Positions 6,795 to 30,791 of a stretch of DNA of 64,000 nt are shown in pieces. A model generated the notes under the pieces. That model searched no databases. It was not told where the DNA came from and saw nothing but the letters and a program-made list of their open reading frames with translations. Within the stretch, counting starts at the first letter, position 1; every line of letters begins with the position of its first letter. Position numbers and translations under genes: made by a program. Source of the DNA: Leptolyngbyaceae cyanobacterium C42_A2020_001 (GTDB lineage Bacteria > Cyanobacteriota > Cyanobacteriia > Leptolyngbyales > Leptolyngbyaceae); contig JACYLN010000101.1 of NCBI GenBank assembly GCA_015272515.1, positions 1 through 64,000 on the forward strand, written 5' to 3'.

Positions 6795-8633
6795 CTAGTC
6801 ATAGGCTGCCCATCGAGGGTCTGCCTGATACCTTACGATCACAGGCTGTGACAATCGATTGATTTCCACATTGCCTAATTGAATATCTTTGGGCAGATCG
6901 AATAAGTTTTGCATGGTGGGTACATCCAAAAACCGGGTTGCAATCGGTAGTTGCATTTGCTCACGCTGGATTGGCGATCGCACCGCCATGACAAACCCCC
7001 ATAGTCCAAAGCTAGGTACATCTACTACGTAAGGGTAAGTTTTCAGCCCAACTGATTCCACCGTTGCCGCGACACAAGCAAACGCTTTTGGGGCAAAAAA
7101 CGGACTGGATGCTTGCGTTACCAACACACCGTCTGGAGCCAATCTAGACAGCAGCCGTTGATAAAATCCCTGCGCGTAAAGTTTGGCGATCGCATCCCGG
7201 TCTGGATCAGGAAAATCCGCAATGATCACATCAAACAGCTCTTGCAGTGATGGAACTGCTATAAACGCATCGCCCTGAATCACCTCCACTCGTGGATCGG
7301 CATAGGCTGCCGCATTCGTCTGCACTAAAAAAGGATGCTTTCGTGCCAGATTGACGACCGCTTTATCCAGATCAATCAACACCACCCGCTTTACATCCTG
7401 CCATTTCAGTACCTCACGCAAGGCAAGTCCGTCTCCAGCACCGAGGATGAGAACCTGGCGAGAGGAGGGAGATGAGGAAGGGGGGGATGATGGGGAAGGA
7501 GGAGATTGAGGATTGGAGACGTTCGTGAGCCTCAGTCGAACGATTGCAGATTGAGGAGTTGGAGAATTTTGTTCTCCCCGTCGGACGTTCGGCGAAGCCT
7601 CAGTCGAGCCGCTGACGCTCTGGGAAACCTGAGTCGAACCGAAGGAAATTTCTCCTCTATCTTCCCTATCTTCTCTATCTCCCTCCCCTCCTGCCTCCTG
7701 CCTCAACGCCTGGTTTGCACTCATTGCCGGATGTACCAGTGCTTCATGGTAGCGATACTCGTCGTAACTGGAGAATTGCAGGTCGCCATCGAGAAACAGG
7801 CGCAGGTCAGATCCTTGACGGGTGAGAACAATGCGTTGATAAGGCGATTGAATCCGGGTGATGACGGGAGCTTTGTAAAGGGTGTTTTCCAGGCGATCGC
7901 CCAGTGGTACAGTAAACGGCACCAAAATCAACAACCCAATGCCCAAAATCAGCCCTATGCGCCCCCATTTGCGAAGCTTGGGAAAGGCGATCGCTAAAGC
8001 GACGACCATGAAAGCCGGGATGGCACCGATCACCATTGCCGCTGGGAACATTCCCAACAATGGCAACAGCACAATGGGCAAGGCGAGTGAGCCAAGCAGT
8101 GCCCCGACGTAATCTAGCGCCAGCACACCAGCGAGGGCATCTTTCAGCCCTTCATCCTGTTCTAGCAGACGAGTTAGGACGGGTAGTTCTAAGCCTGCCA
8201 GCGTTCCCAAAACCAACGTTGCCAGAAACAGGGCAATCCAGAACGGACCATCAATCACGAACAGGGCAAACAACCCCAGGGGAATGAAGGCACTCAGGGG
8301 AGCAATCAGCAATTCAATCCAGATAAAGGTAGTTTGTAACTGCTGTTGCTGGTTTCGATCGCTGCCAGACGTAGCAACAAATCGGCTGAGGTAGGCACCC
8401 AAGCCCATTGCGGCTAAAAATCCGCCCACTGCCACTCCATAAGACAGCGCCTGATTCCCTACTAAGTAACTGGCAAGGGTGCCCAGAAGTAACTCCACTG
8501 CCAGCCCACAACTTGAAGAAGCCGCCGCTGTCAGCAGCAACAAATTCCGCTGTCGCCGACTCAGATGAATGGGCTTGGGCAATTCTTCCGCCGAAAAAAC
8601 CTGATCCATCCTCGACTCCTGCCGCTTCCCCAT
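6795..8633 (-). CDS. Membrane spermidine synthase-like protein with in-frame insertion
   Basis: A 612-aa protein. Residues ~25-235 form about seven membrane helices. Residues ~240 onward are a spermidine synthase-like Rossmann methyltransferase fold: YDEYRYHEALVHPAMS, the nucleotide loop VLILGAGDGLALREVLKW, the acidic VVLIDLDKAVV, VEVIQGDAF and FDVIIADFPDPD, the aminopropyltransferase active-site motif. Relatives of this membrane type are typically about 100 residues shorter. The excess is a low-complexity stretch (~residues 310-391; Arg/Glu/Asp-rich then Pro/Ser-rich) splitting the domain just before the GAGDG loop. Start ATG 8633 lies 3 bp after the stop of the 76-aa gene. With the SpeD-like gene downstream, aminopropyl transfer to an unknown acceptor is likely; the substrate is inferred. 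Confidence 0.85.
   Translation of the reverse strand: MGKRQESRMDQVFSAEELPKPIHLSRRQRNLLLLTAAASSSCGLAVELLLGTLASYLVGNQALSYGVAVGGFLAAMGLGAYLSRFVATSGSDRNQQQQLQTTFIWIELLIAPLSAFIPLGLFALFVIDGPFWIALFLATLVLGTLAGLELPVLTRLLEQDEGLKDALAGVLALDYVGALLGSLALPIVLLPLLGMFPAAMVIGAIPAFMVVALAIAFPKLRKWGRIGLILGIGLLILVPFTVPLGDRLENTLYKAPVITRIQSPYQRIVLTRQGSDLRLFLDGDLQFSSYDEYRYHEALVHPAMSANQALRQEAGGEGDREDREDRGEISFGSTQVSQSVSGSTEASPNVRRGEQNSPTPQSAIVRLRLTNVSNPQSPPSPSSPPSSSPSSRQVLILGAGDGLALREVLKWQDVKRVVLIDLDKAVVNLARKHPFLVQTNAAAYADPRVEVIQGDAFIAVPSLQELFDVIIADFPDPDRDAIAKLYAQGFYQRLLSRLAPDGVLVTQASSPFFAPKAFACVAATVESVGLKTYPYVVDVPSFGLWGFVMAVRSPIQREQMQLPIATRFLDVPTMQNLFDLPKDIQLGNVEINRLSQPVIVRYQADPRWAAYD
7459..7705. repeat. Composite repeat inserted in frame in the spermidine synthase-like gene
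   Basis: About 245 bp with three parts read on the plus strand: a purine-rich tract (7461-7515, A/G only over long runs), a centre with related short units, and a pyrimidine-rich tract (7650-7705). The centre holds GACGTTCG-(few bases)-GCCTCAGTCGA-x-C at 7518-7541 and again at 7584-7610, with a third partial copy at about 7628-7640. The flanks are roughly complementary, so a long imperfect hairpin is possible. Read on the minus strand it has no stop and adds ~80 residues to the enzyme. Confidence 0.7.
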
Positions 8634-23595: not shown

Positions 23596-23700
23596 GGTAG
23601 GGGAAATGGAGGATAGAGGATGGGGAATACAGAAGATGCAGGTAGGGGATAGGGAAGATAAGGGAGAAATTGCTGGGTAAGTGGGAACAACTAATAGAAA
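23596..23700. repeat. Purine-rich dispersed repeat upstream of ftsH
   Basis: A degenerate G/A-rich tract (ggggaaatggaggatagagg ... ggtaggggatagggaagat) is followed around 23700-23750 by a T/C-rich tract (cttttacctttacccattcc). The pattern resembles short tandemly repeated repetitive (STRR-like) sequences of filamentous cyanobacteria and the composite insertions in this window. Confidence 0.5.
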
Positions 23701-23744
23701 GGATTTGTTGCTTTTACCTTTACCCATTCCCTTTTACTCTTTCC

Positions 23745-24155
23745 ATGTCCTCTTGCGGTGAAGTGTTGGTTGCCATTATGAATAATCGGGCGGATTGGGC
23801 GATCGCGAGTGAGCAGCACTGGTATCGCATCCCAATTGAGCAGGTTGAGAAGTTGAAGCAGCGCAACCAATGGCCGCCGAAGTGGTTAGCGTTTTACCAA
23901 ACGAAGGCGTTTGGCGATGAAGCCCATGCGGTGACCTATTATGCCGAGGTTATCGATATGCGGGAAGTCAGCCGCGTCGAGTTGTTTCCCCTTGAAGCTC
24001 AAACAGCAAAAAGCCACACACGTTATTACAAGTTGGAGTTCGCAACGCTGCAAAGACTTTCCCACCCCATCAAAAGTCAGCGGTTGCGACGCATCACGTT
24101 TATTCCCACCACTTTAGAGAAATTGCATCGGGCTACTCAGATTGAGGAATTGTAA
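23745..24155 (+). CDS. Conserved cyanobacterial hypothetical protein
   Basis: A 136-aa protein from ATG 23745 (MSSCGEVLVAIMNNRADWAI); a longer reading upstream runs through the repeat and is not credible. Its opening EVLVAIMNN-x-x-D-x-x-IA-x-x-QHWYRIP is a pattern I associate with cyanobacterial proteins of unknown function, some with a C-terminal nuclease-like domain absent here. The middle has WPPKWLAFYQTKAFGDEAHA and the end has LRRITFIPTTLEKLHRA. Its stop overlaps the end of the convergent sigma-factor gene by 19 bp. Confidence 0.7.
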   Translation: MSSCGEVLVAIMNNRADWAIASEQHWYRIPIEQVEKLKQRNQWPPKWLAFYQTKAFGDEAHAVTYYAEVIDMREVSRVELFPLEAQTAKSHTRYYKLEFATLQRLSHPIKSQRLRRITFIPTTLEKLHRATQIEEL

Positions 24156-29118: not shown

Positions 29119-29240
29119 AGTACTCCATTGATAATACTTGAGATCGCCAAAATTCTTCATGGGGGGACATTTCAGACTTTTTTAAGCTTTCTTTCAAATG
29201 TTGCTGTTTGTCTTTAAATGTAAATTTTTTCTAAATTCAA

Positions 29241-30791
29241 ATGCCGAAATCGCGATCGCTCTTCGTTTGTAATCAATGTGGCGCTGAATTCTCCCAATAC
29301 TTTGGCAAATGTTTAGCGTGTGAAGCTTGGAACTCTCTAGAAGAACAAGTGGTTGCCGCCTCAAATTCCACTGCTAAGCAAAACACTGCCTCTGGAGCGC
29401 GTGCTTCTAGTCGCAAACGGGGAAATTCTCAAGCCGTTGCCCAACCCCGTGTCTCTCTCACCCTGGCACAAATTTCCGATCATCCCCAGCAACGCTTGCC
29501 CTCTGGCTACACCGAACTCGATCGCGTCTTGGGTGGTGGCATCGTGCCCGGTTCCCTCGTTCTCATTGGTGGCGATCCAGGCATTGGCAAATCTACCCTA
29601 CTGCTACAAACTGCGAATCGGCTGGCGCAACATTATCGAGTGCTGTATGTGTGTGCTGAAGAATCGGGACAGCAAGTGAAGTTGCGGGCGATGCGATTGG
29701 GAGTAGGGCAAGACAAGAGTCAAGAAGGAGAGAGTGGGAGAGTGGGAGAGTGGGAGAGTGGGAGAGTCGGGGAATTAGCGCAATCATCTCCGCTTATTTC
29801 CTCCCCTTCCTCCCCTCCACCCTCTCACCCCTCCACCCTTTACCTGTTGCCAGAAATCGACTTGGACACAATCCTGGCAGAACTGGAATCGCTTCAACCC
29901 CAGGTAGCCGTGATTGATAGTATTCAGGCGTTGTATTTCAGTGCGCTGACTTCGGCTCCGGGGTCGGTGGCACAGGTGCGAGAGTGTACGTCGGTGCTGA
30001 TGCAGATGGCGAAGCGACAGAATATTTCGCTGTTTATTGTGGGGCATGTGACGAAGGAAGGGGCGATCGCGGGTCCGAAAGTGTTGGAACATCTGGTGGA
30101 TACGGTGCTGTATTTTGAGGGCGATCGCTTTGCCAGTCATCGCTTGCTGCGAGCGGTAAAAAATCGCTTTGGTGCCACTCACGAAATCGGCGTGTTTGAA
30201 ATGGCAGATCAGGGTTTGGATGAAGTCACAAACCCTTCCGAGCTCTTTTTGGGCAACCGGGAAGAGGCTTCACCCGGTAGTGCGACGATCGTGTCCTGTG
30301 AGGGCACTCGCCCGATTGTGGTGGAATTGCAGGCGTTGGTCAGTCCCACGAGCTATAGTTCCCCCCGACGCTCAACGACTGGAATTGAATACAATCGCCT
30401 CTTGCAAATTCTGGCAGTGCTAGAAAAGCGAGTTGGCATTCCTTTATCCAAACTGGATGCCTATGTCGCGTCATCTGGTGGCTTGAATGTGAACGAACCT
30501 GCGGCTGATCTGGGTGTGGCGGTTGCGGTGGTTGCTAGTTTCCGCGATCGCGTGGTTGATCCGCGCATGGTGATCATCGGGGAAGTGGGCTTGGGTGGGC
30601 AGGTGCGCCCCGTATCCCAAATGGAATTGCGATTGAAGGAAGCCGCGAAATTAGGTTTTAAGCAGGCAATCATTCCCAAAGGACAAACCTTTTCCAATGT
30701 GGGCTTAGAGGTGGTTCCCGTGGGGCGCGTGGTGGATGCAATCGCGATCGCTCTGTCCGCCAAACACTCCACCCAAGAAATAGAGCCTTGA
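29241..30791 (+). CDS. radA: DNA repair protein RadA/Sms with in-frame insertion
   Basis: A 516-aa RadA (Sms), a RecA-like helicase that extends recombination intermediates. It has the N-terminal C4 zinc finger (FVCNQCGAEFSQYFGKCLAC), Walker A GGDPGIGKSTLL and the AEESGQQVKLRAMRLGVG stretch. A Walker B-like VAVIDSIQALYF, the RadA-specific KNRFGATHEIGVFEM and a C-terminal Lon-like domain (GLNVNEPAADLGVAVAVVAS, GEVGLGGQVRPV) follow. Between RLGVG and YLLPEIDLDTIL there are about 44 extra low-complexity residues (Gly/Glu/Arg/Ser, then Ser/Pro). The canonical gene is ~455 aa. Start ATG 29241. Divergent from rpaB. Confidence 0.95.
   Translation: MPKSRSLFVCNQCGAEFSQYFGKCLACEAWNSLEEQVVAASNSTAKQNTASGARASSRKRGNSQAVAQPRVSLTLAQISDHPQQRLPSGYTELDRVLGGGIVPGSLVLIGGDPGIGKSTLLLQTANRLAQHYRVLYVCAEESGQQVKLRAMRLGVGQDKSQEGESGRVGEWESGRVGELAQSSPLISSPSSPPPSHPSTLYLLPEIDLDTILAELESLQPQVAVIDSIQALYFSALTSAPGSVAQVRECTSVLMQMAKRQNISLFIVGHVTKEGAIAGPKVLEHLVDTVLYFEGDRFASHRLLRAVKNRFGATHEIGVFEMADQGLDEVTNPSELFLGNREEASPGSATIVSCEGTRPIVVELQALVSPTSYSSPRRSTTGIEYNRLLQILAVLEKRVGIPLSKLDAYVASSGGLNVNEPAADLGVAVAVVASFRDRVVDPRMVIIGEVGLGGQVRPVSQMELRLKEAAKLGFKQAIIPKGQTFSNVGLEVVPVGRVVDAIAIALSAKHSTQEIEP
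29707..29838. repeat. Composite repeat with 8-bp tandem unit inside radA
   Basis: Four perfect copies of GAGAGTGG (29730-29761) plus one with a single mismatch (29762-29769) form a purine-rich left half. A short spacer follows, then a C/T-rich right half (about 29790-29838, with cctcccctccaccctctcac). The whole is open in the radA frame. Because the unit is 8 bp, gain or loss of one copy would shift the frame. Confidence 0.8.

Follow-up and report, generated by a model that had tools for sequence, protein, structure and literature searches.

The host gene and the inserted segment

The DNA analysed (the window) is a stretch of 64,000 nucleotides from the Leptolyngbyaceae cyanobacterium C42_A2020_001. 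On its minus strand, an open reading frame of 612 aa (6795-8633) encodes a fused membrane and polyamine aminopropyltransferase-like protein of the PRK03612 type, as indicated by its matches to NCBIfam NF002956 (PRK03612 polyamine aminopropyltransferase; 533.6 bits, cut-off 472) and to Pfam PF01564 (Spermine_synth; residues 384-553). The flanks of the insert described below display a dN/dS of 0.038 against those of a congener (G002), the genome of which is a single contig. According to the initial annotation, a repeat had been inserted in frame immediately ahead of the GAGDG loop, and the frame indeed remains open, with no stop across the repeat segment, which adds ~80 aa to a linker of 10 aa in orthologues. 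The features of the gene are as follows:

6795-8633, minus strand: host gene, fused membrane and polyamine aminopropyltransferase-like protein, PRK03612 type, 612 aa (NCBIfam, Pfam, flank dN/dS)
7461-7700, minus strand: in-frame insertion of ~80 codons, residues ~312-391 (linker length against orthologues; AlphaFold2 pLDDT)
7646-7700, minus strand: purine-rich arm, 5' on the coding strand (sequence; polarity common to 19/19 intragenic inserts)
7629-7645, minus strand: left part of small dispersed repeat (SDR) unit M1, CCTTCGGTTCGACTCAG (21 genomic copies; intact, 24-nt-filled and 51-nt-filled alleles)
7612-7628, minus strand: left part of SDR unit M4, nested in M1 (24-nt insertion in M1 at 5 loci; further 27 nt at 4 loci)
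7585-7611, minus strand: SDR unit A, 27 nt, nested in M4 (in M4 at 5 loci; that site empty elsewhere)
7578-7584, minus strand: right part of SDR unit M4, CCGACGG (comparison of filled and empty alleles)
7571-7577, minus strand: right part of SDR unit M1, GGAGAAC (filled and empty alleles; copies of GAGAACAAAATTC in the genome)
7518-7541, minus strand: SDR unit M3, GTTCGACTGAGGCTCACGAACGTC, 24 nt, amid CAATC-type heptads (genome repeat matches)
7461-7517, minus strand: pyrimidine-rich arm, 3' on the coding strand, heptad-like (sequence; arm polarity)

The nesting order of the insert is M1(M4(A)), together with M3. The motif AGCCTCAGTCGA lies at 7528-7539 and 7596-7607, and a degenerate third copy occupies 7626-7637, in agreement with the positions annotated initially. 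These had been described as two copies and a third partial copy of one unit; the motif is shared, but the unit is not the same, as the copies belong to three distinct units, M3 (7518-7541), A (7585-7611) and a part of M1 (7629-7645). Arms of 39 nt at 7460-7498 and 7652-7690 are 72% complementary. In sequence the insertion is mainly a purine-arm/pyrimidine-arm hairpin, and it is only moderately palindromic beyond its purine/pyrimidine composition (z -0.7).

Solved spermidine synthases match the N-terminal strand part of the host protein up to residue ~306 and its Rossmann part again from ~387. The insertion site, as judged from sequence, is a predicted surface linker between these two parts, outside the catalytic core. 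The earlier description of a split catalytic domain therefore holds in so far as the insert precedes GAGDG, but not for the catalytic core, since the structure matches end and restart on its two sides and the Pfam domain begins only at 384. In an AlphaFold2 model of the host protein, obtained from a shallow alignment (mean pLDDT 61.8), residues 317-388, which follow a helix and precede the first Rossmann strand, display a pLDDT of <50, which is consistent with a disordered loop. The predicted translation of the insert frame includes, for example, EISFGSTQVSQSVSGSTEASPNVR. When the segment 7461-7700 was read in six frames, only the used frame was free of stops, the other five holding 2-4 stops; in mononucleotide shuffles of the segment, a given frame stays open in 4.2% of cases.

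The linker in orthologues

Among the loci matching the motif pattern (those without a match were left uncounted), the linker from the conserved HP to VL.LGAGDG measures 10 aa in ~30 cyanobacterial orthologues, including those of Calothrix, Phormidium, Geitlerinema, Coleofasciculus, Symploca and Mastigocoleus, and 13-15 aa in a few others; by identical counting, it measures 91 aa in this genome. The insert segment, whose presence in distant orthologues had been named at the outset as evidence against the claim, is absent from all the ~30 distant cyanobacterial orthologues compared.

The only group with a clearly longer linker comprises the relatives of the source genome, which are Leptolyngbya-like MAGs and strains. 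Their linkers measure 24, 37, 39, 47, 49 and 71 aa and are unrelated in sequence. The DNA of several of them consists of heptad-type repeats, such as (AAAATCC)n in L004 and (GGGCAGA)n in L003.

Recurrence in the genome

A search of the same genome with the 247-nt segment returned 60 matches, the best outside the segment itself displaying 90% identity over 208 nt (E=1.4e-75), and the majority of the 30 leading match loci lie inside long ORFs. It is from these whole-genome matches that the repeats of the insert derive their significance, the 11-mer count within the window alone being not significant. Insertions like this one occur across the genome in about 20 conserved genes, and a set of 19 intragenic insertions in 18 genes was examined; copy numbers given here derive from pattern searches and a 464-kb sample. 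The suggestion of the initial annotation, a cyanobacterial analogue of the in-frame elements of Rickettsia, agrees with these comparative data.

Family searches identified among the hosts quinone-dependent dihydroorotate dehydrogenase PyrD, diaminopimelate decarboxylase LysA, aspartate carbamoyltransferase PyrB, PriA, DnaX, RimI, NagA, an S15-type hydrolase, CobN/Mg-chelatase, an ABC ATPase, a histidine kinase, a sigma-70-like protein, a STAND NTPase, a pyridine nucleotide oxidoreductase, a SIS-domain protein and a second PLP decarboxylase. The last of these (L068, 306-1955) has one in-frame insertion in its first half and another in its second. A composition-based arm scan of 464 kb (the window and 20 stretches of 20 kb, picked by position on contigs already known to carry matches) revealed 11 purine-arm/pyrimidine-arm elements as compared to 2 in a reversed-order control; three are intragenic, in the host gene, RadA and O-succinylbenzoate-CoA ligase (L213). 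Two further elements of the window are:

29705-29845, plus strand: second in-frame arm-type insertion of the window, inside RadA (29235-30788) (purine/pyrimidine arm scan)
23596-23756, no strand assigned: arm element of the same type outside any long ORF (arm scan)

RadA matches TIGR00416 with 665 bits and has 518 aa against the 454 positions of the model. Its insert of ~144 nt contains tandem GTGGGAGA-like repeats and separates the Walker A region from the LPEIDLD segment. At L039, a 499-aa ORF on the minus strand enters a purine arm and ends within it, so that an element may also provide a protein C-terminus. Three candidates were dropped: the acidic DEGDEEDGDEWED stretch of L059 is a composition match and not a repeat copy, and the elements of L043 and L053 lie upstream of the likely start codon and are not intragenic.

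The source is a draft genome of 149 contigs, in which repeats may misassemble, and the insertions might hence be an artefact of assembly or a misread coding region. This is scarcely credible, as ~20 genes are affected, each with its own arms and all in frame, and similar inserts are present in independently assembled relatives, one of them a single-contig genome; genome completeness is 99.98% and contamination 0.13%.

Arms, nested units and reading frame

On the coding strand, each of the 19 intragenic inserts (18 genes) is purine-rich in its 5' half and pyrimidine-rich in its 3' half. This polarity is symmetric, since the reverse complement retains it. Insert lengths range from 144 to 312 nt, each insert being a mosaic of arms and nested units. 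Arm pairing beyond composition is clear in 4 of the 19 inserts, those of PyrD, the S15 hydrolase, RimI and PyrB (z -2.4 to -3.8), and is near zero in most, which suggests that the term palindromic is true mainly at the purine/pyrimidine level.

AAAATTC and CAATC heptads border the core units. M1 is a 24-nt unit (CCTTCGGTTCGACTCAG/GGAGAAC) that is intact at 12 places, interrupted by a gap of 24 nt (M4) at five and by a gap of 51 nt (M4 and a 27-nt unit) at four. M4, in turn, holds a 27-nt unit, which is A at five places and B at two, and M5 (24 nt) holds a 24-nt unit, C or D, at four. All such gaps measure 0, 24, 27 or 51 nt, inside and outside genes alike (L032, L039 and L043 being extragenic); these filled and empty alleles establish both the nesting and the unit sizes. 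A strict pattern extending over two motifs had no match, the units being nested and variable. Gaps of 74, 33 and 71 nt were rejected as real unit sizes, having arisen from a misreading of M1 as the left half of M5.

M1 has 21 genomic copies within 2 mismatches (17 exact) and GAGAACAAAATTC has 19, with 0 in the reversed control of each. No copy of M1 was found in two congeners, and among 115 genomes searched, isolated 2-mismatch matches occurred in 5 others, at about the level of the reversed control, which demonstrates a recent expansion at the level of the species. About 16 of the 21 copies, three near contig ends included, lie inside ORFs. All the 15 scored intragenic copies are in sense orientation and 13 share one codon phase, although the copies are less than fully independent if the cores spread via recombination between arms. 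M1 and M4 alone are open in all three sense frames; the phase bias must therefore stem from the arms, the other units or the encoded peptide. The favoured phase encodes EIPFGSTQ..GEQNSPTPQS, a hydrophilic sequence, the other phases being more basic or hydrophobic.

The 19 inserts hold no stop in the used frame, and their antisense frames almost always contain stops. Since elements that disrupt their host would be lost, in-frame status points to survival and is not evidence of targeting. An insert could also be removed before or during protein production, by RNA processing, translational bypassing or intein-like splicing. Such removal would account for the tolerance of essential enzymes, and the hairpin of the window insert is fairly stable against dinucleotide shuffles, in which the purine/pyrimidine pattern is not kept (z -2.6 as RNA, -2.9 as DNA). 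It is nevertheless very improbable, as every insert examined is in frame and stop-free in the used frame, which would be needless if it were removed, and an Rfam search gave no match, to an intron or ribozyme or otherwise. Inserts of 48-104 aa are, moreover, short for an intein. Translation of the inserts is probable.

Comparison with the congener

Fourteen further host genes have an orthologue in G002 in which the insert is missing, shorter or different at the same junction, and the insert of the congener is absent, shorter or different in 15 of the 18 host genes examined. The histidine kinase has 67 more residues here than in G002. These differences, with the absence of the segment from distant orthologues of the host gene, establish the longer state as an insertion. 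The flanks of 15 gene pairs (the 14 and the host gene) display dN/dS values of 0.038-0.153 against G002 in a Nei-Gojobori-type count made with our own script, which demonstrates that the hosts are under purifying selection. They are 81-95% identical to those of the congener, and the insert sequences are almost wholly different. The inserts of the congener are mostly arms, the core units being missing.

The inserts might have been given a host function in regulation, protein interaction or mRNA structure, since the majority of M1 copies are intragenic and a single frame with a hydrophilic peptide predominates. This is distinctly improbable in view of the near-complete divergence of the inserts between such similar flanks and of host genes that are functionally unrelated to each other. 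The inserts are probably nearly neutral.

In PyrD, the loop between motifs measures 17-26 aa in most genomes examined and 35-65 aa in several members of the family, where differing, often heptad-like in-frame inserts occupy it in several genera (loci L240-L269). This different filling across genera suggests that tolerant sites are reused.

Polymerase slippage on heptads could have lengthened the linker, with core units copied in via recombination between repeats and nothing mobile involved. The degenerate heptads of the arms, the inserts of the congener with arms and no core units, and the PyrD loop filled by different heptads in several family genomes are all as expected from such a process. 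As a full account, however, it is unlikely: slippage does not yield discrete, exactly bounded units of 24 and 27 nt, filled and empty alleles or nesting, and the expansion of M1 is confined to one species. The units probably spread by movement of DNA, as opposed to recombination or templated repair, which between heptad arms would be a possible route.

Relation to known repeats and proposed explanation

The SDRs of Nostoc punctiforme and relatives, reportedly described by Elhai et al. in 2008, are said to be units of 21-27 nt that lie in tandem heptameric repeats, are inserted into one another and are limited to some lineages. The present units resemble them in their presence at many loci and in size (24 and 27 nt, within the SDR range of ~21-27 nt), in being set in heptameric repeats and nested (M1/M4/A), and in their recent spread (21 copies of M1 here, 0 in the two congeners). 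They differ in belonging to a Leptolyngbya-like lineage and are likened to SDRs by anatomy, not by the published sequences of SDR1-8. Here, the copies lie mostly in protein-coding genes and in frame, and all the units found are of 24 or 27 nt.

Rickettsia palindromic elements (RPEs; Ogata, Claverie) are inserted in frame in functional genes (PMC10969869, PMC3733652). As with RPEs, dispersed repeats lie here in frame in unrelated conserved genes, are missing from orthologues (in the 14 further genes against the congener, in the host gene against distant orthologues) and add peptide segments. RPEs, however, are palindromes of ~150 bp in obligate intracellular alphaproteobacteria, whereas a cyanobacterium carries heptad arms with nested units; in place of a clear single-family palindrome of ~100-150 nt, mosaics of 144-312 nt were found, in most of which pairing beyond purine/pyrimidine composition is weak. 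The likeness is one of behaviour only, and no sequence relationship is claimed. The heptameric tandem repeats (STRR) of cyanobacteria such as Calothrix and Nostoc are mainly intergenic (PMC4692102); the arms are likewise based on heptads, but these are here intragenic and form purine-arm/pyrimidine-arm hairpins with SDR-like cores. The elements are accordingly SDR-like with an RPE-like lifestyle, and are not RPEs. A review of 2024 considered a similar in-frame process in other prokaryotes only 'conceivable' (PMC10969869), and the literature searched, most subscription papers lying outside its scope, yielded no account of SDRs inserted in frame in the genes of cyanobacteria.

The explanation proposed, to which we assign a probability of roughly 0.87, is that a composite, mobile-type repeat of the SDR type, built of nested 24- and 27-nt units and foreign to the ancestral enzyme, was inserted in frame in a tolerant linker and is probably translated as a disordered loop of a working enzyme. 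Degenerate heptameric repeats forming a purine-arm/pyrimidine-arm hairpin would first have entered the tolerant surface linker. Into this hairpin, and into each other, SDRs of 24 or 27 nt would then have inserted (M1, M4 and unit A, in that order), with M3 entering separately. As the lengths of the core units are multiples of three, nested insertion would leave the frame intact, and purifying selection would retain only those events whose total length and orientation are in frame and free of stops. The insert would be translated as a hydrophilic disordered loop, rich in E/G/D/R and then S/P/Q, with the enzyme still functional. An in-frame insert already present could, we infer, take up units of 24 or 27 nt undisturbed, and this would account for the build-up of copies in genes. 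On the best reading, the elements last inside genes owing to unit lengths divisible by three and to one frame free of stops, and this divisibility suggests a simple reason for intragenic survival.

More broadly, and only tentatively, mobile repeats with lengths in multiples of three and one stop-free hydrophilic frame may colonise genes of essential enzymes in this free-living cyanobacterial lineage, as an ongoing source of disordered loops and an independent equivalent of the Rickettsia elements, the same tolerant sites (the PyrD loop) being reused in several genera. In-frame insertion of repeats in many conserved genes is a known peculiarity of Rickettsia and relatives, and is found here in a lineage of free-living cyanobacteria. 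As the nested steps are recent and still distinguishable, and a comparison within the genus is available, the origin of loops and their tolerance by essential enzymes become directly testable. In annotation and in structural biology, the absence of such segments from sister species should be expected; the proteins are predicted to carry extra floppy loops.

Candidate mobilising machinery

The terminal inverted repeats of MITEs are shared with a transposase gene and accompanied by a target-site duplication. The arms here differ from copy to copy, and a target-site duplication was not established. Four identical IS200/IS605-type TnpA loci (L234-L237) each contain one TGA inside the family match and are possibly inactive copies; no core units were found in their flanks. 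A reverse transcriptase as the driver is unsupported, an RVT_1 search of the genome having given no match; so far as that search extends, this argues against an RNA-mediated route encoded by the host.

REP/REPIN elements with RAYT transposases are extragenic, often GTAG/CGTC-tagged and have stem-loop potential (PMC3116915, PMC3733652). The present elements are likewise small dispersed repeats with stem-loop potential, but no core unit adjoins the sole RAYT-like ORF (L238), and a RAYT transposase as the driver is thus unsupported. This ORF, of 236 aa, is flanked by repeats of the GTAGGGTGCGTT / AACGCACCCTAC type, which are unrelated to the core units.
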